A DNA stretch of 34,644 nt. It comes from Spirogloea muscicola. Lineage: Eukaryota > Streptophyta > Zygnematophyceae > Spirogloeales > Spirogloeaceae. Position 1 is the first letter of the stretch, and each line of letters begins with the position of its first letter. The translations under genes were made by a program, and so were the position numbers. Shown piece after piece: positions 16,328-33,596 of this stretch. The notes below the pieces were generated by a model. That model was given only the letters and a program-made list of their open reading frames with translations, did no database searches and was not told where the DNA came from. The stretch is taken from the NCBI GenBank assembly GCA_009602725.1, contig WELB01000034.1, forward strand, positions 71,270-105,913, in the 5' to 3' direction.

Positions 16328-16429
16328 TACCGTATGCGACTGTCTATGTCCCTGCAGCGCTCCCAAGCGCTTGCTTTGCACCGCCGCGCTGGTCGCGCCC
16401 TTGCAGCAGCCTCTGGCTTGCGCAGCGGG
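16328..16429 (+). pseudogene. 34-codon coding relic, copy 1
   Basis: Encodes YRMRLSMSLQRS followed by an Ala/Arg-rich helix (RAGRALAAASG). It matches the segment at 22561-22662 at 28 of 34 residues, while 18 codons differ only at synonymous positions. It ends just before the ambiguous base at 16436 and the TC run. Family unknown; probably a mobile-element fragment or an exon of a dispersed gene family. Confidence 0.6.
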
Positions 16430-16435
16430 GTTGCT

Positions 16436-16436
16436 N

Positions 16437-16508
<72 letters not shown>

Positions 16509-16580
16509 CTTCTCTCGCTCTCTCTCCCTCTCTCGCTCTCTCTCTCTCTCTCTGTCACTCGCTTGCTTCGCTCCTCTCTA
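16436..16580. repeat. (TC)n microsatellite with ambiguous base
   Basis: An N at 16436 is followed by about 70 bp of pure TC, then interrupted CT-rich sequence to about 16580. It lies about 90 bp upstream of the proposed start of the repeat-protein gene, within its likely promoter or 5' leader. The N marks uncertain assembly of the run, so the true length is unknown. Confidence 0.95.
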
Positions 16581-16670
16581 CTCCCGCAGCGGCCGGGTCG
16601 CTGCCGACGCCTCGCCGGCCGCTCGGCCACAGCTGGCCTCCACGGCCGCTCGCACCGGAGCCGCGGCGCC

Positions 16671-19600
16671 ATGCCTGCGCCGCACCTCGCTCCGGCCCGC
16701 GACCGCACCACCATCTGCTCCGCCACCAACAGCTTCCTGGACGCCGTTGCCGCCGCGGAGCCGATGGCCACGACAGCGTTCTCCACAGGCTGCGGCCCGC
16801 CCGACGAGAACGGCAGGTAGCAGCTTCGATGCGGCGCACCCTCGCCGTCACACCGGCGGCTCTTGGCGAAGGCGCCGCACCATCGCTCGTGCACCGCGCT
16901 GATCCTCTACGTGTTGCCACGGCTGCCAGCTCCTGCTGCAACGCCGCCGCGATGGCTGCGCTGGACCGTCAGGGCGCCGGCGGCGGCGGCCGCGCCGCGC
17001 TCGAGGACCTGGCGGCCAACCGCCTCGCCGGCGCCGTCGCCCTCCCATCGCCAAAACCACCGGCGCCGGGCCCCGCACTCCATCCGGCGGCTGCCAGGTG
17101 TGCCGACGGCCCTACTCTGCCGAGCCGTGCGCCGGCGGCTCAGGCCCCACCGTGCTCGGTGCTGACAGCTGTCCCGCCGGCACCAGGTGTCCGCCGCAGC
17201 CCGAGTGCGGCACGCCGCGGCCGGCGCGCACCGTCGCCAGCACGCTGGCACTGCAACGCCACCTGGCGTCGCCAGCTGCCGTCGACCACCTGCACAGCCT
17301 TTTCCTCAATGACGGTTCTGGTGTGGCTGCTGAGGGCCTCCGGCTAGGGCTGCGGCCAACGGCGGCGGCCAGCGCCGCAGTCGTCGACCACATGCGGGAG
17401 CTGCTGCGGGAGCCGACGATTCAGGATATTCCGGCGGCCTTTCCGGAGCCGCCGCCGCCGGCGTACCCGGGTCAGTGCGACAGCGTCCAGGCGCTCCTTG
17501 GCGGCAGGGCGGACGAAGCGGCGACGCTGCCGCCGACGCCAAGGCGGGCCAGGGCCGTGCCGTCGTCGCCCGCCGCCGTGGACCACGTGCAGCAGCTGCT
17601 GGCGGGTGGTGGAGACGATGGCGGCAAGAGCAAGGCCCGCAGGGCGAGGCCGACTGGCGAGGGTGCCAACGTGCTGGGACTCTGGCGGCTGGACCTTGGC
17701 GCCGTCGATGGCAATGGCGACGCCGGCACCGTACCCAGAGCCACTCGGCGGCCCCCAGCGGCGGCTGCAATGGACAGCCTGCACAGCATCCTTCACGGCG
17801 ACGATACCGGCGACGTGCCTTCGGCTCCGCCGCCGCCGCAGCGGACGCCGCGCCGGCCGGCGGAGTGCATGGCTGCCGTGGACCACGTCAACGCGCTCCT
17901 CCAGAGTGGCGGCTGCTGCGAGTCGGAGGGCGCCTCTCCTACGCAGCTGGCGCAGCGCCAGGGCCAGGCAGCCTGTGCCGCCACGCGCAATGCCGTGCGG
18001 GGCATCCTGAACGAGTCCTCCGCAGACCCGACGGTGCCGACGCCGAGGCATCGCGGCCACTGCCCCTCGCCGGCGGCCGTCGACCACGTGCAGAGTCTGT
18101 TTTGCAGCCATGGAGGCGATGCTGATGAGATCGGAGTAACCCAGCGGCGGCTCGATGTGGCGCGGCCAGCGGCCATGGCGTCGGTCGACCACGTCCAGGC
18201 GCTGCTGCACAGCGCTCCTCCGGCGGAAGCAGCTCAGCGGCAGGCGCCGCCGTCGTACCCGTGGGCCAAGGACCACCTGGCATCGATCCTGCACGGTGAT
18301 GATGGCGGCACGGGTGGCGGCTTCTTGCAGAGGCGGACGAGGGGTGGCCGTGCAGCTGCCGAGGAGGACAATATCCGCGCGTACTTCGTCGAACTGGCAG
18401 AGTCGGCGACGGCAGCAGCCAACGAAGAGGCTCTGAGCATGGCGGCGCCACCACCGCCGACCGACTCGTTTGATGCGAATGGAGACGGCAATGGCACGAT
18501 TGAGGCAATGAGCGAGCGACTGGGGGATGAGCCAGGCGCGGAGCTGCGGCCTCTGCCGCTGGTGTCACCGGGCCTGGCCGGCCGCGGCAGCCCACCGGCA
18601 CTCGACGACGAGTCAGCGAGCCCGCCAGGTACAGGTGACGGCTGCATGGGTGGCACAGCAGAAGCTTGCACAACGGCGGCAGCGGTGACAGTGGCGGTGG
18701 CGGGCGACGTGGCAGCGCCGCCGGTGCCGGCGGTCTTCTCACCGGTGCGCTGGTTCCCGAGGGCCAAGCGGGAGTCCTACCTCGAGCGCAAGATCCGGCT
18801 GCTGCAGGTGATTGGCTGCCAGAGTGCCTCATCTCATCTGCAATCACCACAATCGGCATAGTGCTGAGGAGACTACTCCTTGATCAAAGTGATCAGCAAT
18901 TTGACTAACCGACAACATACTTACTTCAATCTGACTTTGGCTACTGATACTTTGTACCTCTTGGACGTCTGCATTGCTTGGCTGTGCAGGAGCAAGACGC
19001 TGCGGCGGCAGGCCCGCTGGACGAGGCGCTGGAGAAGGGGCGGCGTCGCACGGGCCTGGTGGAGCGCGAGAAGATTGCGGCGGCCGAGGCAGCAGTGGCG
19101 GCCACCGCCGCCCGCCGCGCGGCGCTCATCGAGGTGGCGTGGTGCTGCATTCTCGGGGCTGCAGGGTGACTAGCTCGGTCCCTGCAGCCTCGCAAGCGCA
19201 TCTGGTGGTGACTGCCGCTTTGCTCAGCACTGGTCAAGAGGGGCGGCTGTGATAGCCAGCCGAGTGCATGCAGAGGGAATTGCCAGTGCATCTACACTCC
19301 ACGATGCCGCAGGCTGGACAAGTTGATGTTGACTGATGGTGCCTCTCTTGGCCTGTGACTGCCTACCTGTGGCTCTGCTAATGTAGTCATTATTAACCTC
19401 CAATTCTGCAGGGTCGTGCTGCCAGATGCAAAGGCGCTGGCCGACAAGCGCGAGCAGGAGGCCCTGGCTGCCACCGCGCGCGCGGAGGCTCTCGGGGTGG
19501 CGCTGCCGCTGCCGCCGCAGAAGCGGTCATCCTGCGGCTCGCTCTTGATCAACAGCAGCTCAACTTGGCTTTCACAGCTGCCGGCAGCTGCCATGAGCCG

Positions 19601-21653
19601 CAGCATGGACCTCAAGGACGCTGCCTCCTTGTCGGTGGAGACCACACATACCGTTGAGAAGGTGTGGACTATCCTGAGCACCTACACTCACTTGACTGAC
19701 GGGCAGTGTCAAGCGACAACCAGCTGATTTGTAATTAACCATTCAGCTTCACTTATCAAGTCAAAGTGTACTCTCTACAACTTAATACTCGTAACTGCCC
19801 CCGTTCCACAGGATGTGGTGATTGCCGTCCAGGCCGCGCTTCGCAAGGTCGTCGATGTTGCCGGCAAGGTGGGCTTGGCAGGGCAGGGGCCTGAGGCAAG
19901 TGTGGCAACTACGTGTGTTGCAGAGGCGCTGAGTGAAGATATGGTTAAAGAGGAGGCGACGGTGGCAGTGGCAGGTCGGCAGGCTGCGGAATCTGCAGTG
20001 GGAGCGGCTGCATTGGAGCTCAGCGACGCCTCACTTGAGCACGGCAAGCCGTCAGTGGCAGGCCAGAATGCTGCCGAGACTGAGGCGGCGGCGGCTGTGC
20101 CGGGACTCTGCAACTCCTTGCTCGACGATGAGCCGCCTGTTGCTGGTCAGGAGGCTAATGAGCTCGCGGTGGTCGGGGCCACGACGGAGCTCAACGGAAC
20201 CCCGCTTGAACAGACAGTGGCAGGCCACCAGAACACTGCCACTCTTGAAGCAGTGATGACCGCAGCAGGGCTTGACCATTTCATGCACAGTGACGAGCTG
20301 CCCGTGGCGGGCCAGGAGGACACCGACATTGCACCAGAGCTAAGTGAAGCCTCACTTATCGACAAGGCGCCGGTGGCAGGCCAGGATGAAGCCAAGTCCC
20401 CACCGGTGGCAACTGGGATGGAATCTCAGACTGGCAATGAGCAGCCAGTACCACGCAAGGAGAAGGCCGCTGCCGAGGGGGATGGAAGCACCGACACCCA
20501 CCACTGCTGCTCCGCCGATGACGCTGAGGTGACTGCAGCAGAGCCGGTGGCTGTGCTGGAAGTGGTGGACGAGGCTCATACTGTGGCAGTCGCCGAGGCT
20601 GGCAGCAAGTCCAGGAGTGAGTCCGTGGGCACACCGGAGGCTGGCATGACAGGCAGGGACTGCAAGCAAAGTACGCAGGAGATGCAGGATGTGAGCGTGC
20701 AGGTGGAGGTGAACGAGTGCAGTGAAGGAGTCGAGATCCGTGCTGAGGCAGTGGCCAGCGAGCTGCAGAGCAGCGACACTCGCAGCCCGGATGCCGCCAA
20801 CATGCTGCTGAGAGCTGCCGTCGCAGCCGTCGAGCAAGCAGAGGAGGAGGACCCGCTGGTGGTCACCATGGCAGAGAGGCTGCGAGTCCTGGAGGCAGGT
20901 CAGCTCGCGACAGTAGCGGCGGTCGTCTCGACACGGGCGGCCGTGGCGGGCCTGCTCGCTGACCTGCAGGGGAGGGCGACTGCTGCAGAAGCCCCCAAGC
21001 GCAGCGACAGCAGTGGAACTGGTGGCGACGAGCACTGCGGACTTGGTGACATCCTGGTGAAGCGCGTGTCCCGTCTGGAGGCCGAGCGCGCAGCGGCGGC
21101 GGCCGCCGAGCAGCAGTGGCTGCAGGGATCCAGGAAGGGTGCCGCTGCTTCTGGGACCAGCGGCAAAGGCCCTCCGGCGGCCGCGGGGAGTTTCGGTGAT
21201 AACCTCGTGAAGCACCGGAGCCGGCTGGAGAGGGAGGTGGCCGCCGCGCGGGCTGCGGCGGCGAGCAGCGATGCGGTCCTGCAGCAGTCCCGGCTGGGAG
21301 TGGACAAGGATGGGCTGACGAAGCAGGAGGCTGTGGGCGGTGCCGCTGTCGGTGCTGTGGTGGCTGCTTCGGCGGCCAATGGCGGTGGCAGCCTGGGCGA
21401 TGTGCTTGTGAAGCGCAAGTCGAAGCTGCAGCTGGAGGTGGAGCGGGCGAGGGCGGCGGAGCTGGTGGCGCGTGAAGCGGCTGCCGTCCTTGCAGGCGCC
21501 AATGGCTCGCCAGTGATCATGACTGAGGCTGCACAGCGGGCCAGGGCCGCAGGCGGCAGTGGCCTGGGTGATGGCGTTGTGTGGCGCAAGTCTCGCCTGG
21601 AGGCAGAAATTGAGCAGGCCAAGGCCGCCGAGGGCAGGGCTCGAGACATGTAG
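16671..21653 (+). CDS. Unrecognised 1400-aa protein built from three repeat sets
   Basis: No family recognised. Six phase-consistent exons, 16671-16816, 16930-17097, 17187-18807, 18990-19165, 19412-19661 and 19812-21653 (TAG), give 4203 nt or 1400 aa. The N-terminus begins MPAPHLAPARDR. Residues about 130-510 carry about eleven copies of a short predicted helix, AAVDHVQxLLxxG, spaced 28-39 residues apart by Pro/Ala/Gly-rich linkers. Exons 4 and 5 encode charged Ala/Glu/Lys helices. Residues about 808-980 carry VAGQ repeats of 23-29 residues. The C-terminus has four copies of GDxLVKRKSRLExE in Ala/Arg/Glu-rich likely coiled coil and ends RARDM. It reads like a largely disordered multivalent scaffold. 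Exon 4-5 boundaries are the least certain because an alternative donor exists at 19134. There is no signal peptide and no membrane segment. Confidence 0.72.
17266..18400 (+). repeat. AVDHVQxLL tandem protein repeats (about 34-aa period)
   Basis: Within exon 3 the motif recurs with its central residue near positions 137, 171, 205, 236, 300, 336, 375, 403, 438, 466 and 500 of the protein. Examples: SPAAVDHLHSLF, SAAVVDHMRELL, SPAAVDHVQQLLAGG, AAMDSLHSILHGDD, MAAVDHVNALLQSGG and ASVDHVQALLHSA. The double gap after 236 could hold one decayed unit (VLGLWRLDLGAVDG). Linkers vary freely in sequence, so selection seems to act on the helix and on spacing. Confidence 0.85.
19227..19262 (-). repeat. Dispersed hairpin repeat, copy F (intronic)
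   Basis: The minus strand reads GGCTGGCTATCACAGCC followed by GCCCC. It lies inside the fourth intron (19166-19411) of the repeat-protein gene. Confidence 0.6.
19874..20386 (+). repeat. VAGQ tandem protein repeats
   Basis: Seven copies of [VL]AG[QRH] occur at intervals of about 23-30 residues in exon 6. Several units also share ELSDASL or ELSEASL, and most end with a Pro just before the next VAG. Surrounding residues are acidic and Ala/Glu-rich. This set is distinct from both the AVDHV and LVKRKSRLE sets. Confidence 0.8.
21042..21653 (+). repeat. GDxLVKRKSRLE protein repeats at the C-terminus
   Basis: Four copies: GDILVKRVSRLEAE, GDNLVKHRSRLERE, GDVLVKRKSKLQLE and GDGVVWRKSRLEAE. Each is followed by an Ala/Arg/Glu helix such as ARAAE or AKAAE. 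Spacings are about 51, 67 and 57 residues. The basic core followed by a heptad-like helix suggests repeated binding or oligomerisation modules. Confidence 0.85.
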
Positions 21654-22046
21654 ATTGGCGCCCAGCCGTCAGACTTGGCCACAATCTTGATCGGGCTGCG
21701 CGTGATGTCTGCGTATGCCTTGCGCGTGCTTTACCGAGGTAGTAAGCGCAGTTCTCAACTGCTTGGAATATCTCAGTCTTGCCACAGATGAGCCATGCAA
21801 TCCATCCTGAGGACGCTTTTCGTGGCCGTAAATGTACACCGCAGTCGGACTTAGGACACCATGGATTAGACCTACAGCTAGATCTCCCAAGTATTTCTGA
21901 TACAAACAGCTTGCAAGAAGGCACACTACTTATTCACACGGAGACAAACTATGTACATGATTGGTGTAGGAGCTACTTACTTGCTGATGATATGCAAGCA
22001 TCGCAGCCATGCATACTTCAAGCATGCTCATCTGCTCAAAGAGTTG

Positions 22047-22434
22047 AGAGAAGAAAGGGCTCGCCCCCATTGAGGATAGGGGCTGGAAAAGCCAGCCCAG
22101 AAAGGAAGGAAGAGTGGCAGAGTGCTGATCGTTGAGACACTTGCGGTCTTGGCACAGAAGCTAAGCGCTTGAAACAAAGTGGCTCTCCCAAAGGGGGCAA
22201 GGAGGAGCCACATATCAGAAAAGAAACGAAGCAGCTACGAAGCACTCAGTAACCCCTGCTAAGCAGCCTCAGGTAGCTGCTTCGTTTCTTTGCTGTGCTT
22301 GTTGTTCTTCGTACTTCCCCTGGCCCCTTCTCGTCCTTTGTTCATTCTTTTTGGGCTGGCTTGGCCAGCCCCTCTTTTCTATGGGCGCGCTTTTCTTTTT
22401 CCAGCCCCTATCCTCAATGGGCGAGCCCTTCTCT
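22047..22434. mobile_element. Nested inverted-repeat (foldback/MITE-like) element
   Basis: Outer arms at 22047-22088 and 22399-22434 are near-perfect inverted copies centred on CATTGAGGATAGGGGCTGG. Inner arms at 22220-22238 and 22273-22291 are a perfect 19-bp inverted repeat with a 34-bp loop. Between the arms are copies of the GGGCTGGC family and, at about 22173-22202, an inverted fragment of the dispersed repeat. No transposase is visible. I infer a non-autonomous foldback element or two elements nested in each other. Confidence 0.5.
22322..22370 (+). repeat. Dispersed hairpin repeat, variant copy C
   Basis: Has the same GGCCCCTTCTCGTCCTTTG leader as copies A and D and then GGGCTGGCTTGGCCAGCCCC, a shortened palindromic version of the core. 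Confidence 0.6.
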
Positions 22435-24072: not shown

Positions 24073-26049
24073 CGTGGAACACATCGATAGGCTCTTGGTG
24101 GTATTGCACATGTGGGCCTGATGTGGAGGCTGGGTCAAGCATGCAAGCGAGCGAGTGAGCTTTTTCACTCGCTGCGCTCGCCGGCTCGTTACAATCTGCA
24201 AGTTTGCAGGAGCGCTAGAGGATACTTGAATGCTTAACTGCCGCTGCAGCAACTGAAGGGCAGGGGTCTACTGCTCTTCTGTTGTTGGGCAACTGAGTTG
24301 CTGGCGCAAGCTTTTGACTCAAGCTTGAGATCCCTCTGTTGGCCACAATGCAGTGCGCTGGGCCGACTGTGGGCCCGATCGTTGTGGCTGGCCCTGGCGA
24401 GGAGCCGCTGCAGCTGGCTGCTACTGCCGGTGCTTGGCCTAGGCGGGCTTCTAAGTGCCAACGGATCGGAAATGCGTCAGCAGCTCCAGGCGACTGGTGT
24501 GTATCGTGATGACCGACCTGCTGTGGGCGAGCTCTCTTGTGTGCAACTTCTGCTTGACCTGCTTCTGCCATCCTGCTGAGTGAAGTGAGGTCTGCCATTG
24601 GCCTGGCCACGTTGCGGATGACTCCACCGCCCCAGCCGCTTTTAAGGTGCTGAAATACCAAAGCCCTCACGCATTCAAAATCTCGAATCGAGTGCGAAAA
24701 TTTGAATTCGCAACCCTCGTGTTTCAGAATGCTGAAACCCAATAATGTGCACTGGCTCTGGCTTCCGTGGCCTGGCAATTGCTTACCACTGCGTGCCGAC
24801 ATCATCATCATGATAGTTCTTATTATTAACGTAATGATTTGTACATAGAAAATGCGCTGTTTGAAGCCATGAGCTTTTGTGTCACAATTTGTCACAATGT
24901 CATCGCCAGTGGCAAGGAGCTGGACAAGCAGAGGCTCGTTGTGCCTGCTATTGACCTATTTGCTGGCTGCCATCAGATCGTGCAAGTGGAGGCTCAAAAT
25001 GTAAAGCACAGAAACATCTCGTCTAATGTGACAGCTTTAGAGAAGATGAAGCAAACTGCACGGTATGAATATTGCTACCTGCTGCAACGAGCCTATCAAT
25101 CTATTGCTCATATGACCTGTGTATCTCTTAGAGCAACTACGCCTGCTTGTAAAAGCAAGCTCTGAGCCGCGCATGTGTTTTTAATGCACGCTCAGGTCGA
25201 CGCTTGATGCTGATGCTGCTTGCTATTGTGCAGCTTACTGAGTCTTCCTGTGGTTGATTTGACCATTTGTCCACTGTGGTCCTCAAAGCTGCAGACCACC
25301 AACTGTGAATGTGCGGTGCACAGTTTGCGGCAGCAGGGCTGGGCTGGCACAGTGCATCCAATGCTCATCTAATTATTGCAGCAGGTTCATGCAGAAGCTG
25401 TAGTAACAAGAAGAGGACCATCTTGACGTACATGCTCGACTCTCGACCATGACCACTATTCAACACAAGTAGTGCCTATTACGTAGTCTCAATTCCACCC
25501 ACTCCGAGCTGCCAGCTGATTGGGTGGAACGTTGCTTGTGCTTCTTGGATGCTGCAGGGCAGGCCACCTCCATACGCACGTGCTAGCATCTGAGTCACAT
25601 GGCCACCTGTATTCTTATAAACTTGGCTGCCAGGTGGGTCGGCTTGCTGGAGTTTCTTTGGCAAGACAGCCCACAAATGAGCTCTAGCCTAACAGTGGCC
25701 AAAATCCACTTAGGAAAGTCCTCTGTGGAGTCTGTCTCATGTAATGCTCATTGCAAACAAGTGGGTTTGCCATCAGCAGCAAGAAATCCTCTTAAAGCCA
25801 CTGCATCGACGGCATTGATACGCCTTACTGGCTGCATTGGACTCTTGAAGTGATTGGGTAAGGACTAGTTTGGGTCTGCTTAAGCTGGGCGGATGACTGC
25901 AGGTGAAATGCTGCAAAGCGGGCTGCCCGATAACGACCATCTACCAATTAAAGGGCTGTCACCACTGCTGGAGCAAGACACACAGCAATCACTACAACAG
26001 CACAAGTGGTCGCTGGTCTGCCTGCATACACCATAAGTGGCTCAATTAC
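24073..26049. other. Region without a confident gene
   Basis: No exon chain could be supported here. Minus-strand fragments with plausible splice sites occur (near 24895-24957, LLVQLLATGDDIVTNC; near 25250-25340), and may be 3' exons of the unidentified minus-strand gene at 26050-27128. A GC-rich block at about 24330-24560 is open on both strands but resembles no family. Confidence 0.4.
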
Positions 26050-27128
26050 CGCCCACAATTCACATCTTATAAGTTTAGCGAGCATTTTCTTGCAACACGC
26101 AAGACTTTCCTACAGGTCAGTCCATGTTTGTGGTTGCCAGGCCTGGTTGAATGATAGGACGGTTGACCGCAGCATTTGGCTATCCTCCCAGGAATGCGCT
26201 GGGCCTCAAGCAACTCACAAATGCAATTGCATGTGATGACCACTTTGAGTGGTAAGTGTTGCCACATTGCCAAGTCAAAGGACCACAACGTTTACTGGGC
26301 ACATTTGTTATGCTTACCCATAAGAGCTTGGGGCGTTGCATCTTCACAGTTTCTTGTAGGCACGTTTCATAGAACTCTGCGACTGAAGTAGCATCAGTCA
26401 TTGGCATTAAGATGGTTGCAAGGTTCTGACTGCAGTGTGGCCCCTGAATTGTACCTATATCTTGCCCAAGGGTTTCTGCAGGCATCGGATGAAATGCATG
26501 CATGCGGACGTTGACAACAGTGGCCTCCTCGCGACAGCTGATGTGAAACTATGGGATAGTATCAGCCACTTCTTGTTTTAACTAGCTCAGTATGCAAGAC
26601 GTCTTCTGCAGCACTGTTGTACTTGCGTCAAACTTTGTAAGCTCTTGACAATCGTCATCCACAATATCACCTCACTTTCAGTGCACAATATCTTCACCCC
26701 AATGTCCAGCTTCTTGTGAGAACTTGGCAGTACAAACTTTCTTGATGAAGCACAGACCTCAAGTTCACTGATGAATGACCACATGCCTCACATGGACTAA
26801 GCTTGTGGAAGTCTACTGCAGAGAAGCACAAATGAGGCAAAAGTTGCCTGCCCACTACCTGTCTGCCAAACCTCTGGGCTGAATTTGGGGCACGAGAGTA
26901 GACAGCTGCTGCAGCAAATCACTCGACAACCTGACAGTCACACCACCACCTCGCCTACGGTAGGCAATGTCTTAATAGTGGATCTTGACAGCAAGTTACT
27001 TTATGCTTGGTGACTGGAGTGCGACACAGGTATAAATGCAACCCTTGGCACCGAGCTGATGTTCTACGAAGAAAGCATTCTGTCAACAGGATTAGCTCAG
27101 ATGCGATGCACTGATGAGCAGCGGCCCA
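26050..27128 (-). CDS. Unidentified protein, several internal exons of a helical protein
   Basis: Minus-strand exons join without phase conflict: 27128-27052, 26930-26859, 26796-26698, 26537-26318 and 26109-26050. All have AG acceptors and GT donors. Encoded pieces include ASELILLTECFLRRTSAR, LSSDLLQQLSTLVPQIQPRG, SSVNLRSVLHQESLYCQVL, EEATVVNVRMHAFHPMPAE and MTDATSVAEFYETCLQE, then CKKMLAKLIRCELWA. The composition and Leu spacing suggest an alpha-helical, perhaps HEAT-like, protein. I do not recognise the family, and neither the start nor the stop is located. Exons may extend left toward 24200 and right toward 27300. Short exons and moderate GC make chance a real alternative for individual pieces, but five compatible phases in a row support a gene. 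Confidence 0.42.
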
Positions 27129-27542
27129 CTTGCAAGAAAAGTGGTTGAGTGTAGCAAGCACAAAAGCTCACCATCAATTACACAACAACGCAAACAAGCA
27201 TTCATACGACTGTAGCAACTGGAAGTTTTTTTGCCAAAAATTTCCCATTTTTGCCAGAGTGGTATTCTACAAGATGCTCTTGCAAGCATGTGGAGGTGAG
27301 ACCAGTGGCGGAGACCTGGACTGGAGAGGCGGCAGAGAGTGGGAAGAACGAGGGCTAAGGAGGGGGGAGGGTGGCCAGCCACATGCTCTCATAAATCCAA
27401 TAACAAATGGAGGGTGGACAGGTGGAGAAGAACGAAGCATTGTATGGCGATGGTGGTCACAAGGGCAGGAGGTCTGGGATGAGAGTGGGTACGCTGAAGG
27501 TCTATGCCAAATGCGAGCCAGTGGCGCTCAAGCGCTCAGCGC
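27129..27542. other. Spacer between CAO and the unidentified minus-strand gene
   Basis: Likely holds the CAO 3' UTR and the 5' region of the gene at 26050-27128. Open frames on both strands (for example a Gly/Arg-rich frame at 27290-27440) look compositional; no recognisable product. Confidence 0.5.
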
Positions 27543-29885
27543 TCAGCTGGCGGCGCCGAGCGGGCTGCCTGCGACCTCGCCTTGGGACGGTGACTCGATC
27601 GCCTTTCGCCACCGTCGGTAACTCAAGCCCAGTTTGTCGTAGCCCACGGGGTGGTTCCACACGTTGGCTCCCCGCACCATGCGGTCCTGCTGGCCCAGGA
27701 CTAGTCTCAAGTCCTCGGCAAGAACCTGCAAGTGTGGCATATGTGCAGGTGAGACACACTGGCCTCCCAACTTCTCAAGACATGTCCTTGACGATAAGGT
27801 GTCGCAGGTTCACCTGTGACGGCTAGATTCAGTCTTGGCAAGTGTGCCCATTGCATTCCTTAAAGGCAAAAGTAAGATTCGGACATTCCAACACAGGATT
27901 GCAGATGACGCAGAACTTGATTCGATGACACAATTGCATCTTGTATGCAACTGCCAAGTGCGTTCACGCTAAAGGTATGCAATGACTGATCAAAGCTGGG
28001 CAAACCAGTCTGGCAAAGCAGTACCTGGTTGGCGAGGTGCTGCCAAAGGTGGTCAATGAAGGGAATGTATTTTGCCCAGCTAGCAAAATCAAGGCCCATG
28101 CGGTAGAGGAGGCGGGTTTTGCCCCGCGATGACGGCATGCAGACGTGCAGTTGGTGGAGGTGCTTGGCACACTCGGCGGCGCTCTTGCCCTCCAGCTTTC
28201 CAGGCTTGGACAGCCCAATCGTTGACAGCACGACACATGGGGGCCGGAACTCCATGTCTATTGGGTACGGATCCCATGCGCCCTGCATTGCAGCCGCCGC
28301 CGCTGTCTTGAAGCGAACAAGGCTGCAACACCGTTGCCGCAACGAGCACAACTAGAGTCAGCTCAGTGATTGACAACTCTTACATAGCAGCACACCATCA
28401 ATGGCCGGTCTGGCCACCATGAGGATCTACCGCAGGAGCAAACACATTGAGTCAATGTATGTTGTTGGAATGTATGCGCCATACTTATATCGTTGCCAAA
28501 CCCGTGTGCTTGCGAACCAATGGCATGTGTGAAACATTCAAGACAGCAGCCCAAGCCAACCTTGGGATGGCCCAGCCCTTGGCAAACGTGGTGGTGTGCG
28601 TGAATGGCGCGTGCGCAAGGTCAAGAAGGTTCTCCACTAGCAGGCCGTGCTCCACCGGCAACTCTAGTACAATCTGCAGCACCCACCGAGCCGCTCACAT
28701 GGTGCTCGTTAAGACCCCGCCTCCGTTCTGGAGAATGGCATGGCTACCTGGTAGGGTGCTGACAGGCCGGACAGAAAATGACAAGACAGAGTTGCGGCGC
28801 CCGGAGGAGATAGTAAGGGCGTTGTCAGTGGCAAGCTCGGAAGGTCACCTCAGCATGGATTGTGTATTCGTCTGGTGGATTGAGGCATGGCAGCTTCTCG
28901 CTGGCCTGGCCGACACCGGGCCAGATCCACACCAAGCCGTCCTGCTCGACACACGGCATTGCCTTGACGCTCGCAGTGCTCTGCCGTGTGGAAGGCATCT
29001 TCTCGCACTGGCCGCTCACGGAGTACTCCCAGCCTGGACGCAAGCCCGGCTTGCTAAGACCTCAGAACGTAGCAGAGGTACAGAAGCCATATTCCCCCAA
29101 CTTCGGCTGAGCCTCCATTGACATTGAGCTATCCTAGCCTTGGCTGCTCCCCAGCTCCTTGATCCATGGATGCAGGTACTGACGGCAGGAAGCTGGGCAT
29201 TGCATTGCTGTAACAGCCAAGTGAAGGCTGCAAGAGCATCCCAGAGGCAGGAGCAGCAGGGACACTGACCATGGTAAGGGCACTGGACGCGGCCGTCCAC
29301 GACCGCGCCAAGGGAGAGCGGGCAGGCTCGGTGCGCGCACTCGTCCTGGATGCACCCCGGCGAGCCGTCGGCGCCTCGGAAGAGCACCCACGGCTCCTCA
29401 AAGCATTCAAACGGTATCTGCTGGGGCAGGCGAGAGTGACTCGCCGATGATAAGGAGCAGAGCTGGCTGCCAGTGCTCACGGCAGCTTCAGCATTGCAGC
29501 TGGCTACATCGAACCCCAACCAGAGGCAAGCTCGGTCAACACCACTGAAGCTGCCACGGCTCGCTTGACGATGGTGGCAGCCATCAGTGGCAGCTGAAGA
29601 TGGTGGCGGCAAACTCACCAAGGTCTTGTCGTCGAGTTGCCGGGAGAAGGCGGCGGGGAACCAGAAGTTCTTGAGCTCCGCCGGGTAGGGCTGCACGGGC
29701 CCCGACACGTCCAGGGACCCCACCCTGGACGGCGCGGCGAGCCGCGCGGTGCTGCTGCTGGGAGACGCCGCCGCCGGCTCCTCTGGAGCCAGCACCGCAG
29801 CGCTGCCGGCGGCGGCTGGCGCCGCGCTANGCTCTGCCGGTTTCTTACCGGCATCTCGCCGACAGCTGACCTCCCTGCGTCTCAC
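27543..29885 (-). CDS. CAO: Chlorophyllide a oxygenase
   Basis: Rieske-type monooxygenase of the chloroplast that converts chlorophyllide a to chlorophyllide b. Secure exons: ..-29619, 29417-29270, 29033-28849, 28673-28561, 28322-28025 and 27725-27543 (TGA), all in compatible phases. The first contains [18 protein letters not shown]. The second has [11 protein letters not shown] and the Rieske motif [16 protein letters not shown] (CxH and CxxH). The fourth has [20 protein letters not shown], with the Asp/His/His mononuclear iron ligands. The fifth has [20 protein letters not shown] and the last [16 protein letters not shown]. The catalytic domain is complete. The N-terminus is unresolved: only about 90 in-frame codons precede the catalytic part, an N sits at 29830, and a good donor (GTAAGA) follows an ATGCCG near 29850. 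Confidence 0.96.
29830..29830. other. Ambiguous base in the CAO N-terminal exon
   Basis: A single N lies in GC-rich sequence at the start of CAO, 20 bp from a likely splice donor. It may stand for one unresolved base or for a collapsed gap. Confidence 0.9.
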
Positions 29886-30016
29886 TACCCGCTCTCCCCG
29901 TTGTCACGTGTATAGCTCATGTGTTGCTTTTGTTTAGTGTCGGCCAGCGTGAGCCACCTTGCCTTCCCCTGCATCCTGCTTCGTCGTGCTGCGGCAGCTG
30001 CGGCGGCGGCTGCGGC

Positions 30017-31670: not shown

Positions 31671-33596
31671 TCACATTACCACGCACTTGGGCTGGATTCT
31701 GTGATGCCTACGTTGCTTCGAAGTGGACTGCGTAGTGCCGTTGCCCTTCGAAGGCTTGTTCTCTGGCAACGGGATTTCGCTTTCTGTAGTTTTCGACTGC
31801 ACACAGGTGCTGCAAGAGCTTAATGAGCACAACAGAAAGTGACCTGAACCATGTGGTATTTGGTAGTACAACATATCATTGCTCAAGCCTCTGAGAATGG
31901 TCAGGCACTCGGCACCTACTTGAGCTGCAATGACGTCCTCTTCCTTCAAGTCACTTGCTTCGGACCAAGAAGGTCGCCCCCCAAGCTTCGTGAGTGTGGG
32001 CTGCTTAGGTGGTTGTTCCTGGCGCCTTCCAAGCTGAGTGACCATAGGCGGCTTGATTGGTTGCTCCCGTCGCCTGCCAAGCTCAGTGATGACCAGCTGC
32101 TTGGGCGGCTGCCTAGTTGATTGCTCCTGTTTCAGGGCTCCTGTAGGTGAAGCAGTCTTCATCTCGCATGTAATCAAGTGTGTCAAGGAGATTGTCGTCA
32201 GCTTTTTGCAGCCACATTTGGGATTCGTAGGCAACTTCAATACCTGCTTCAAAGTATGCGCGTCATGACCAGCCTACTACTTGTACTGGTGGTGACTTGC
32301 ATGTGTACCTATAGTAATGCTAGTGTTTATAGCCCTGAGATTATGATGTAGGCTAAAGTTCGCATGTCAAGCTTTAGAGAGTGCACCTGCAGGCTGGCAA
32401 GCCTCTTTTCCAGGTATGCGACACGATCTAGGACGGTGCTTGCTCTGCCACTCTTCACCTCGGTGGCCAGCTCACCACTGTTGTGCAAGGTCTTTCTGTC
32501 GACAATGTTGGGTGTCGGGGGCCCAGAAATAGGAAAGTCCAAAGGGGAAGACGGACTTGCAGCAGCCGCCAGAGCAGCAAGCTGCATGCAAAAGAGCACC
32601 CATCTCAAATGCCATCAACCGCCTCACGTCAGTACGACCCTTTCAGTCGCCTAGGACAGCACCACCAAGACTATCGACTTCCTCATAACTTCAAACTTCA
32701 GTGATTGGCTGACTGGTGGAGGAGACTTGGAGTGCAAGCATCGTCATGCCTGCACTTGCTGCAGATACATACCTGGACCTCAAGAGCTGCAACTCGCGCA
32801 AGCAGAGGAGTTGTTGGCGTTGGCGGGGCGCTCATAGCCCGCTGCTCAGCAACACTCCTTGCATCACCTGCAGTGGCCTGCTCTGAAGCAACTGGGGTTG
32901 ATGGAGGGGAATGGGGTTCGCCATCCTTGAATTCTGCAGCCTGCCGCTTGCGGTTGCCTGTCAAGACCTTGAGGCCAGGTACACTTTCTGAGACTCTCTG
33001 CTCGGCCTCCTTGGCCTCCTTCTCTGCGTGCTCTACCTTCTCGACCAACTTCACGCGCAGCCCTGTGCCGCTGCTGGCCTGTTGCTCTCCCTCTTGCTTT
33101 CGGTCAACCTGCTCCTCGGATCCTCGCTCGCGGGACCACAGTCCTGGGACAATATGCGAGACCTTCTCCTTGACATGCTCAGCCGTGGTGACCAGCTTGT
33201 CCTTCGCTTGCTCAGCCTTCTCGACCAGCTTATCCTTCGCTTGCTCAGCTTTCTCGAAAATGAGCTTCTTTGGACCATGCTGGCCTTGTCTTTGCCCCTC
33301 TGCACCGTCGGTCCTTGTACCGCCTAGAATGACTATCTCATCTTCATGCGGCCCTTGTGTGCCTCGGGATCCTAGAATGACGACCTCGTCTTTCTTCAGC
33401 CCGTGCGCCTTGCTGTCAGAGTTGCTGTTCTGTGTGGTATTTGCTGGAGTTGTTGGCTCACGAGCCCCTGATAGCCCTTGTCGGCGGCTACTAGCTCCAA
33501 GAAAGCGGGCCACACATCCTGGCTTCCTGCCTTTTGCAACACTATCTCTCACTACTGGAGGTTGGGTCTCGGCACCTGCACGAGCTTGCTGTCGTC
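31671..33596 (-). CDS. Unrecognised protein with LEA-like 11-mers and two further repeat sets
   Basis: Three phase-0-compatible minus-strand exons: 33596-32773, 32581-32387 and 32243 to about 31671 (stop; part of the last may be intron). The first exon has a duplicated KDEVVILG/EDEIVILG unit, then EKAEQAKDKLV twice and TTAEHVKEKV. This is the 11-residue periodicity of group 3 LEA proteins, linked with dehydration tolerance. It continues with a Lys/Glu helix (KLVEKVEHAEKEAKEAEQRV) and ends LLARVAALEVQ. The second exon has GPPTPNIVDRKTL and VLDRVAYLEKRLASLQ. The third has three copies of a basic unit like QPPKQLVITELGRRREQ. A further 5' exon likely lies at about 33760-33945; the start codon was not located. 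LEA assignment covers only one segment, and the whole protein is not a known LEA protein to me. Confidence 0.55.

Follow-up and report, generated by a model that had tools for sequence, protein, structure and literature searches.

What kind of protein is built around a long series of short, evenly spaced motifs separated by variable linkers, and could it be, as the earlier note on this locus ventured under the label of inference, a component of a pyrenoid? The window examined here (the whole stretch of DNA that was analysed, 34,644 nucleotides) is part of one contig (C34) of a genome of 153 Mb in 471 contigs, and it contains one constrained nuclear gene coding for a protein of about 1344 residues, the first exon of which is a candidate. 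In the earlier note its length had been put at 1400 residues. The coding parts of the gene are the following:

16671..16816, forward strand: candidate first coding exon, with an ATG at 16671 (MPAPHLAP...) and a GT-AG join to 17187.
17187..18807, forward strand: exon A, bearing the helix-linker array; its donor (CTGCAG/GTGA) is conserved and it is open from 17203 in all three copies of the gene.
18990..19165, forward strand: exon B, in phase 2 at its end, with frame and splice sites conserved in the three copies.
19412..19661, forward strand: exon C, with frame and splice sites conserved in the three copies.
19812..21653, forward strand: exon D, through the stop codon, open in the three copies.

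The three copies reside on homoeologous contigs (C34, C23 and C1), and the frame and splice sites of exons A to D are kept in all of them; the stop codon is TAG in the window copy and TAA in the other two. An upstream exon is required, since the frame of exon A has no Met ahead of the second repeat, and splicing of 16671-16816 to 17187 yields a single in-frame open model of 1344 amino acids. A coding exon at 16671..16816 is thus likely, though unconfirmed by the homoeologues. The 813 bases from 16437 to 17249 are 100% identical to the copy on C23 and correspond to a gap or N in the copy on C1, in which N precedes the codon at 17203, so the modelled 5' end (16671-16816) is uncertain. The identical block begins directly after a single N, adjoining a (TC)n run, and either was filled in during assembly or goes back to a recent gene conversion; with this block set aside, the copies diverge elsewhere by roughly 9-21%.

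Positions 16400-22200 and 25001-28000 are collinear across the three contigs, with a DNA identity of about 79-93%; the separate 3-kb stretch at 25001-28000 is 81% and 79% identical to the other two contigs. Because the array, exon D and this separate stretch all occur on the same three contigs, the block is triplicated, as expected of three subgenomes, and this is what the genome looks like. A similar multiplicity is seen for RBCS, found on four contigs, and for the LCIB family, found on three. The latter matches, to an LCIB-type carbonic anhydrase family, comprise 14 pieces on C183, C114 and C233, with an apparent tandem pair per contig and one piece containing an internal stop. No fourth member of the gene was found in the genome at the cut-offs used: with the array as a query (E up to 0.001) only the three homoeologues match, and with the C-terminus and the domain described below as queries (E up to 10) the three homoeologues are clear and three further matches are weak (E 0.4-4.7). 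Two other features of the window may be mentioned, namely a resemblance, noted by eye, of 29016-29903 on the minus strand to an exon of a Rieske-type chlorophyllide a oxygenase, and a repeat with a period of 33 bases at 33176-33257, whose minus strand codes for KAEQAKDKL-like units that to the eye are reminiscent of LEA proteins.

The array itself lies where a tandem series of helices had been reported, and its elements are as follows:

17260..18400, forward strand: array in one reading frame, with about 12 units, each of some 33 residues, built around the motif [A/S]AVD[HS][VL]xx[LI][LF].
17284, 17386, 17479, 17581, 17773, 17881, 18082, 18187, 18271 and 18367, forward strand: codons of the motif Asp in the strict units.
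Near 17680 and 17988, forward strand: two decayed units, placed by eye from spacing only.

The existence of the array is well supported statistically, as the pattern D[HSN][VLMI]xx[LIY][LF] has 10 matches in 434 residues, compared with a mean of 0.0066 and a maximum of 1 in 5000 shuffles, and the narrower VDH[VLM]xxL[LF] has six matches and none in the shuffles. A motif clearly recurs, but the consensus AAVDHVQxLLxxG proposed for it is best understood as an average, since the exact string AAVDHVQ is present only twice in the window copy. The strict units alone are 28-67 residues apart, and the two decayed units fill the two double gaps; eleven spacings of 28-36 residues then result (mean 32.8, SD 2.3). 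The regularity seen by the earlier note holds as a lattice of about 33 residues, the measured range with the decayed units being 28-36 rather than 28-39 residues, and the linkers are rich in Pro, Ala and Gly, as it had described. None of 200 random placements, made without a minimum distance, fits the lattice as well as the ten strict matches do. Individual units are less even in quality. In a scan in which the best score of the shuffles has a median of 1.0, the decayed units score -3.6 and -1.5, and a stretch near 17245 that lies off the lattice does as well (-1.3); it is therefore by their position alone that the decayed units are counted. Under leave-one-out scoring the last unit (18367) fails (-3.1), and the units at 17386 and 17479 pass modestly, with 9.6 and 8.0 against a 95% maximum of 7.1 in shuffles. 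Of the twelve units, nine are secure and three probable. Acidic strings resembling EF-hands, spotted by eye around 17707 and 18480, were dropped from consideration, the one at 18480 not being conserved in the copies.

Comparison of the homoeologues shows which parts of the protein matter most for selection. Pairwise dN/dS values, calculated for the three pairs with a Nei-Gojobori script, are 0.07-0.18 for a conserved domain downstream of the array (0.21-0.25 for its extension), 0.14-0.15 for repeats at the C-terminus, 0.45-0.50 for the whole array, 0.47-0.82 for the stretch following it, and 0.60-0.79 for a weakly constrained spacer with VAGQ motifs. Within the array, the helix motifs (0.24-0.38) are lower than the linkers (0.48-0.63), so that by this measure constraint is strongest on the domain and the C-terminal repeats, weaker on the motifs and weaker still on the linkers. 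These values indicate that the sequence is protein coding and under purifying selection, but also that the strongest constraint falls elsewhere than on the array. It might accordingly be proposed that the array is an expanded repeat under loose constraint and that the working part consists of the conserved domain and the C-terminal helices, and the dN/dS of the array against that of the domain, together with the decay of two units, points in this direction. However, the core positions of the ten motifs (D, V, L, L) are invariant in 37 of 40 cases compared with 209 of 283 ungapped linker columns (p = 0.009), the three changes being F/Y, F/L and I/V, and gap columns avoid the motifs, all 11 of those in the array falling in linkers and none in the 110 motif columns (p = 0.04). 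The contrast is not significant for the full 11-residue motifs (90 of 110 invariant against 209 of 283, p = 0.11). On balance we regard the repeat-expansion proposal as quite improbable. Of the original interpretation, a genuine series of short coding motifs on linkers, for which multivalency is the best reading, is supported, the array being kept in three copies and the core of its motifs more constrained than the linkers.

The best-conserved parts of the protein, which the earlier note did not mention, lie outside the array and comprise a basic domain and the C-terminal repeats:

18736..19871, forward strand: basic domain of 186 residues (FSPVRW...VAGKVG), spread over exons A to D, pI 9.3.
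19872..21035, forward strand: spacer, acidic (pI 4.2), in which the motif VAG[QRH] occurs six times, at 19968, 20055, 20139, 20217, 20304 and 20373.
21036..21650, forward strand: second array, with four GDxLVKRxSRLExE units at 21045, 21195, 21396 and 21567, recognised by a shuffle test, dN/dS and AlphaFold2.

In the domain, 96% of the first 108 columns and 90% of the next 79 are invariant across the copies. The six VAG[QRH] motifs of the spacer compare with 0.06 in shuffles and are separated by 23-29 residues (19968-20384). The four units of the second array compare with 0.0002 in shuffles, and this array is better conserved than the first by dN/dS. In the AlphaFold2 model of the C-terminal array (mean pLDDT 56, with 40 of 208 residues at 70-90) each unit opens a predicted helix of 28-39 residues, and two shorter helices are predicted between units. 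A Ser following basic residues is kept in all four units in the three copies; in the window copy alone, a Trp replaces the Arg ahead of one such Ser.

The structure of the first array can be addressed only by prediction. An AlphaFold2 model made from three sequences (mean pLDDT 34) has no compact fold and places helices over seven of the ten strict motifs and over one decayed unit, leaving the strict motifs at 17479, 17581 and 17773 without one; the identification of the motifs as helices in this low-confidence model is suggestive. A pLDDT of 34 from three sequences is compatible with disorder or with a shallow alignment, and charge-hydropathy analysis classes all five regions of the protein with folded chains (0.457 for the array against a boundary of 0.420) and calls none of them disordered. 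Disorder of the array is therefore not demonstrated. The period of about 33 residues and the position on the folded side invite another reading, a degenerate solenoid of ankyrin-like or other 33-residue repeats. Ankyrin repeats have a period of 33 residues, and their helix 2 resembles the Vxx[LI]LxxG-like string seen here. The linkers of the array are, in contrast, rich in Pro and Arg and variable in length, the AlphaFold2 model, low as its confidence is, contains no solenoid, and no ankyrin or other repeat family was listed for any of the three copies at E up to 10 in a profile search whose filters drop most weak matches. An ankyrin-like solenoid was consequently rejected for want of a family match in the three copies, and a solenoid of any sort seems to us extremely unlikely.

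The distribution of charge is distinctive. Averaged over the units, Arg is common at -13 to -9 from the motif Asp and Asp/Glu at +9 to +13, so that on average a unit reads Arg, Pro/Ala, a Val-x-x-Val-x-x-Leu-Leu face, Gly and Asp/Glu, with any one position holding a base in at most 4 of 12 units and an acid in at most 6 of 12. The array has a pI of 6.3-6.4 with two to three lysines, and the whole protein a pI of 5; values of 5.9-6.1 for the array, obtained with other borders, are replaced by these. By module, the pI is 9.3 for the domain, 4.2 for the spacer and 9.9 for the C-terminus. The averaged alternation of Arg with Asp/Glu and the acidic middle between basic parts could suggest that the protein self-associates into condensates through charge, with no specific docking partner. 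We consider this unlikely, as conservation is higher in the motif core, with its hydrophobic residues and Asp, than in the charge-bearing linkers.

Sequence databases offer little guidance as to the family to which the protein belongs, in agreement with the view that none could be assigned: there is no significant match in Pfam, NCBIfam or PDB. Pfam gave no match above its cut-off for any module, two of the scans covering the window copy, and the matches below the cut-off, to MMPL (E 0.05-0.09), BsobI (E 0.044) and the SelB wing (E 0.55), were judged to be due to chance, as was an NCBIfam GlmU model (E 0.016) hit by one of the three copies. A profile search of the PDB with E up to 10 returned nothing when the query was the whole protein, the domain or the first array, and with the C-terminal array three chance-level matches at E 2-3, none of them axonemal by name. 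Patterns derived from the protein were matched in viral contigs and prokaryote genome contigs, where no relative was confirmed; these are non-algal collections with no bearing on conservation in algae. Six exact peptide strings from the protein were not found in published papers.

These searches bear on the possibility that the protein is associated with the cytoskeleton, be it with microtubules, actin, cell division or cilia, by means of binding motifs in tandem and a tail at the C-terminus that is basic. Motifs in tandem, combined with a helical tail and a domain of basic character, are common among cytoskeleton-associated proteins, and both the tail and the domain are indeed basic in the window copy (pI 9-10). 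The array, however, is lysine-poor and not basic, and the PDB, which should include the solved axonemal chains, provided nothing beyond the three chance-level matches mentioned above. Against a ciliary role in particular, a search of the genome found neither dynein heavy chain (PF03028) nor IFT46 (PF12317), an argument that is weak since no control genome match accompanies it. A cytoskeletal role is, in our estimation, improbable.

We now return to the pyrenoid. If the protein were a Rubisco linker of a new type, its helices would cross-link Rubisco by binding to it, and a condensate would result. The array does have the general architecture that has led to such a linker before. FLIPPer, a search for disordered proteins with structured repeats 20-120 residues apart, was passed by 13 proteins of Chlorella sorokiniana, one of which co-purified with RbcL and is CsLinker, according to the accessible portion of the paper (PMC11570498). 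The spacing of the present array (28-36 residues, or 28-67 with strict units only) falls within this range, and the helices of CsLinker, of about 10 residues in the same portion of that paper, are similar; the same count of 13, read the other way, means that just one protein with such architecture went with Rubisco there (PMC11570498). The genome has RBCS and LCIB-type carbonic anhydrase family genes, which makes a CO2-concentrating mechanism possible, and RBCS being encoded in exons identifies the source as a photosynthetic eukaryote, which we take to be a green alga. A WRxxL string (LWRLDL or FWRLDL) and an FLQRR string, each present once, are conserved in all three copies. Pyrenoid linkers are described, in the accessible parts of two papers, as arising independently and found only in close relatives (PMC13167743, PMC11570498), and the Chlamydomonas motif is said there to be absent outside Volvocales (PMC13167743). 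Because linker motifs are lineage-specific, their absence would be expected even for a real new linker; missing motifs lower the probability that the protein is EPYC1 or CsLinker, not that it works like one.

The motifs of known linkers are in fact missing from the repeats. The string [DN]W[RK]xx[LIVA], which we take to be the Rubisco-binding consensus of Chlamydomonas EPYC1, has no strict occurrence in the three copies, the nearest being the one loose WRxxL per copy. F[LM]x[RK][RK] is in no motif helix, the sole FLQRR sitting between two helices. EPYC1, which carries the Rubisco-binding motif (PMC13167743, accessible part), has four near-identical 60-residue repeats and positive regions facing acidic patches of Rubisco, as far as the available text describes it (PMC6265248). 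The two proteins would have in common a succession of short helices borne on long, flexible linkers, but here there are about 12 diverged units of about 33 residues, the Arg-rich stretches of the array are offset by acidic ones, the protein as a whole is acidic, and further conserved modules are present. Similarly, the contacts given for CsLinker in the accessible text, Phe173, Leu174, Arg176 and Lys177 (PMC11570498), are without counterpart in the present helix, which ends in Leu-Leu, often followed by Gly. The near-neutral, lysine-poor array and the far better conservation of the domain and the C-terminus speak against a linker, as may the candidate N-terminus, with acidic residues at 11, 24 and 30 unlike the Ala-rich start of RBCS. 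In view of the base rate, of the charge and of the stronger conservation of the remaining modules, we deem a Rubisco linker very unlikely, and the suggested pyrenoid role finds no support: the repeats lack the sequence features of the two characterised green linkers, the pI of the protein is low, and conservation is highest outside the array. Just as remote is a new green-algal linker unrelated to these, in which the near-neutral VDHVxxLL helix would condense Rubisco or another stromal enzyme and the domain and phosphorylatable C-terminal helices would tie the condensate to another structure.

The reading that we favour, with about an even chance of being right, is that the protein is a multivalent scaffold in which a docking array of about 12 motifs is combined with the conserved basic domain, the acidic spacer and the four basic C-terminal repeats, and which probably holds several partner molecules together. 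Each unit would offer one short amphipathic helix with its Val-x-x-Val-x-x-Leu-Leu face, often with Pro/Ala before and Gly after it, and such helices may dock weakly in the groove of one recurrent partner, many weak contacts adding up to avidity. The Arg before and the Asp/Glu after the helix might keep the linkers extended or mediate chain pairing. The basic domain and the four C-terminal helices could serve to anchor the scaffold or to oligomerise it, and a kinase switch might be provided by the invariant Ser that follows basic residues at the opening of each C-terminal helix. Among known systems, the helices postulated here may be likened by description to the LD arrays of paxillin type, whose flexible chain carries a number of short amphipathic helices, with leucine and aspartate, that dock in a groove of the same type. 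No homology is claimed, and the motif is VDHVxxLL rather than LDxLLxxL.

Arrays of docking helices on flexible chains are one route to multivalent scaffolds and condensates, and they are easily missed by homology searches. If the partner of the present array were Rubisco, a pyrenoid linker would have been invented independently once more, which we judge unlikely on the evidence. In any case, a regular array available in three diverged copies, accompanied by two further modules without a family match, makes this gene a clean test object, and the motif itself names the residues to mutate.
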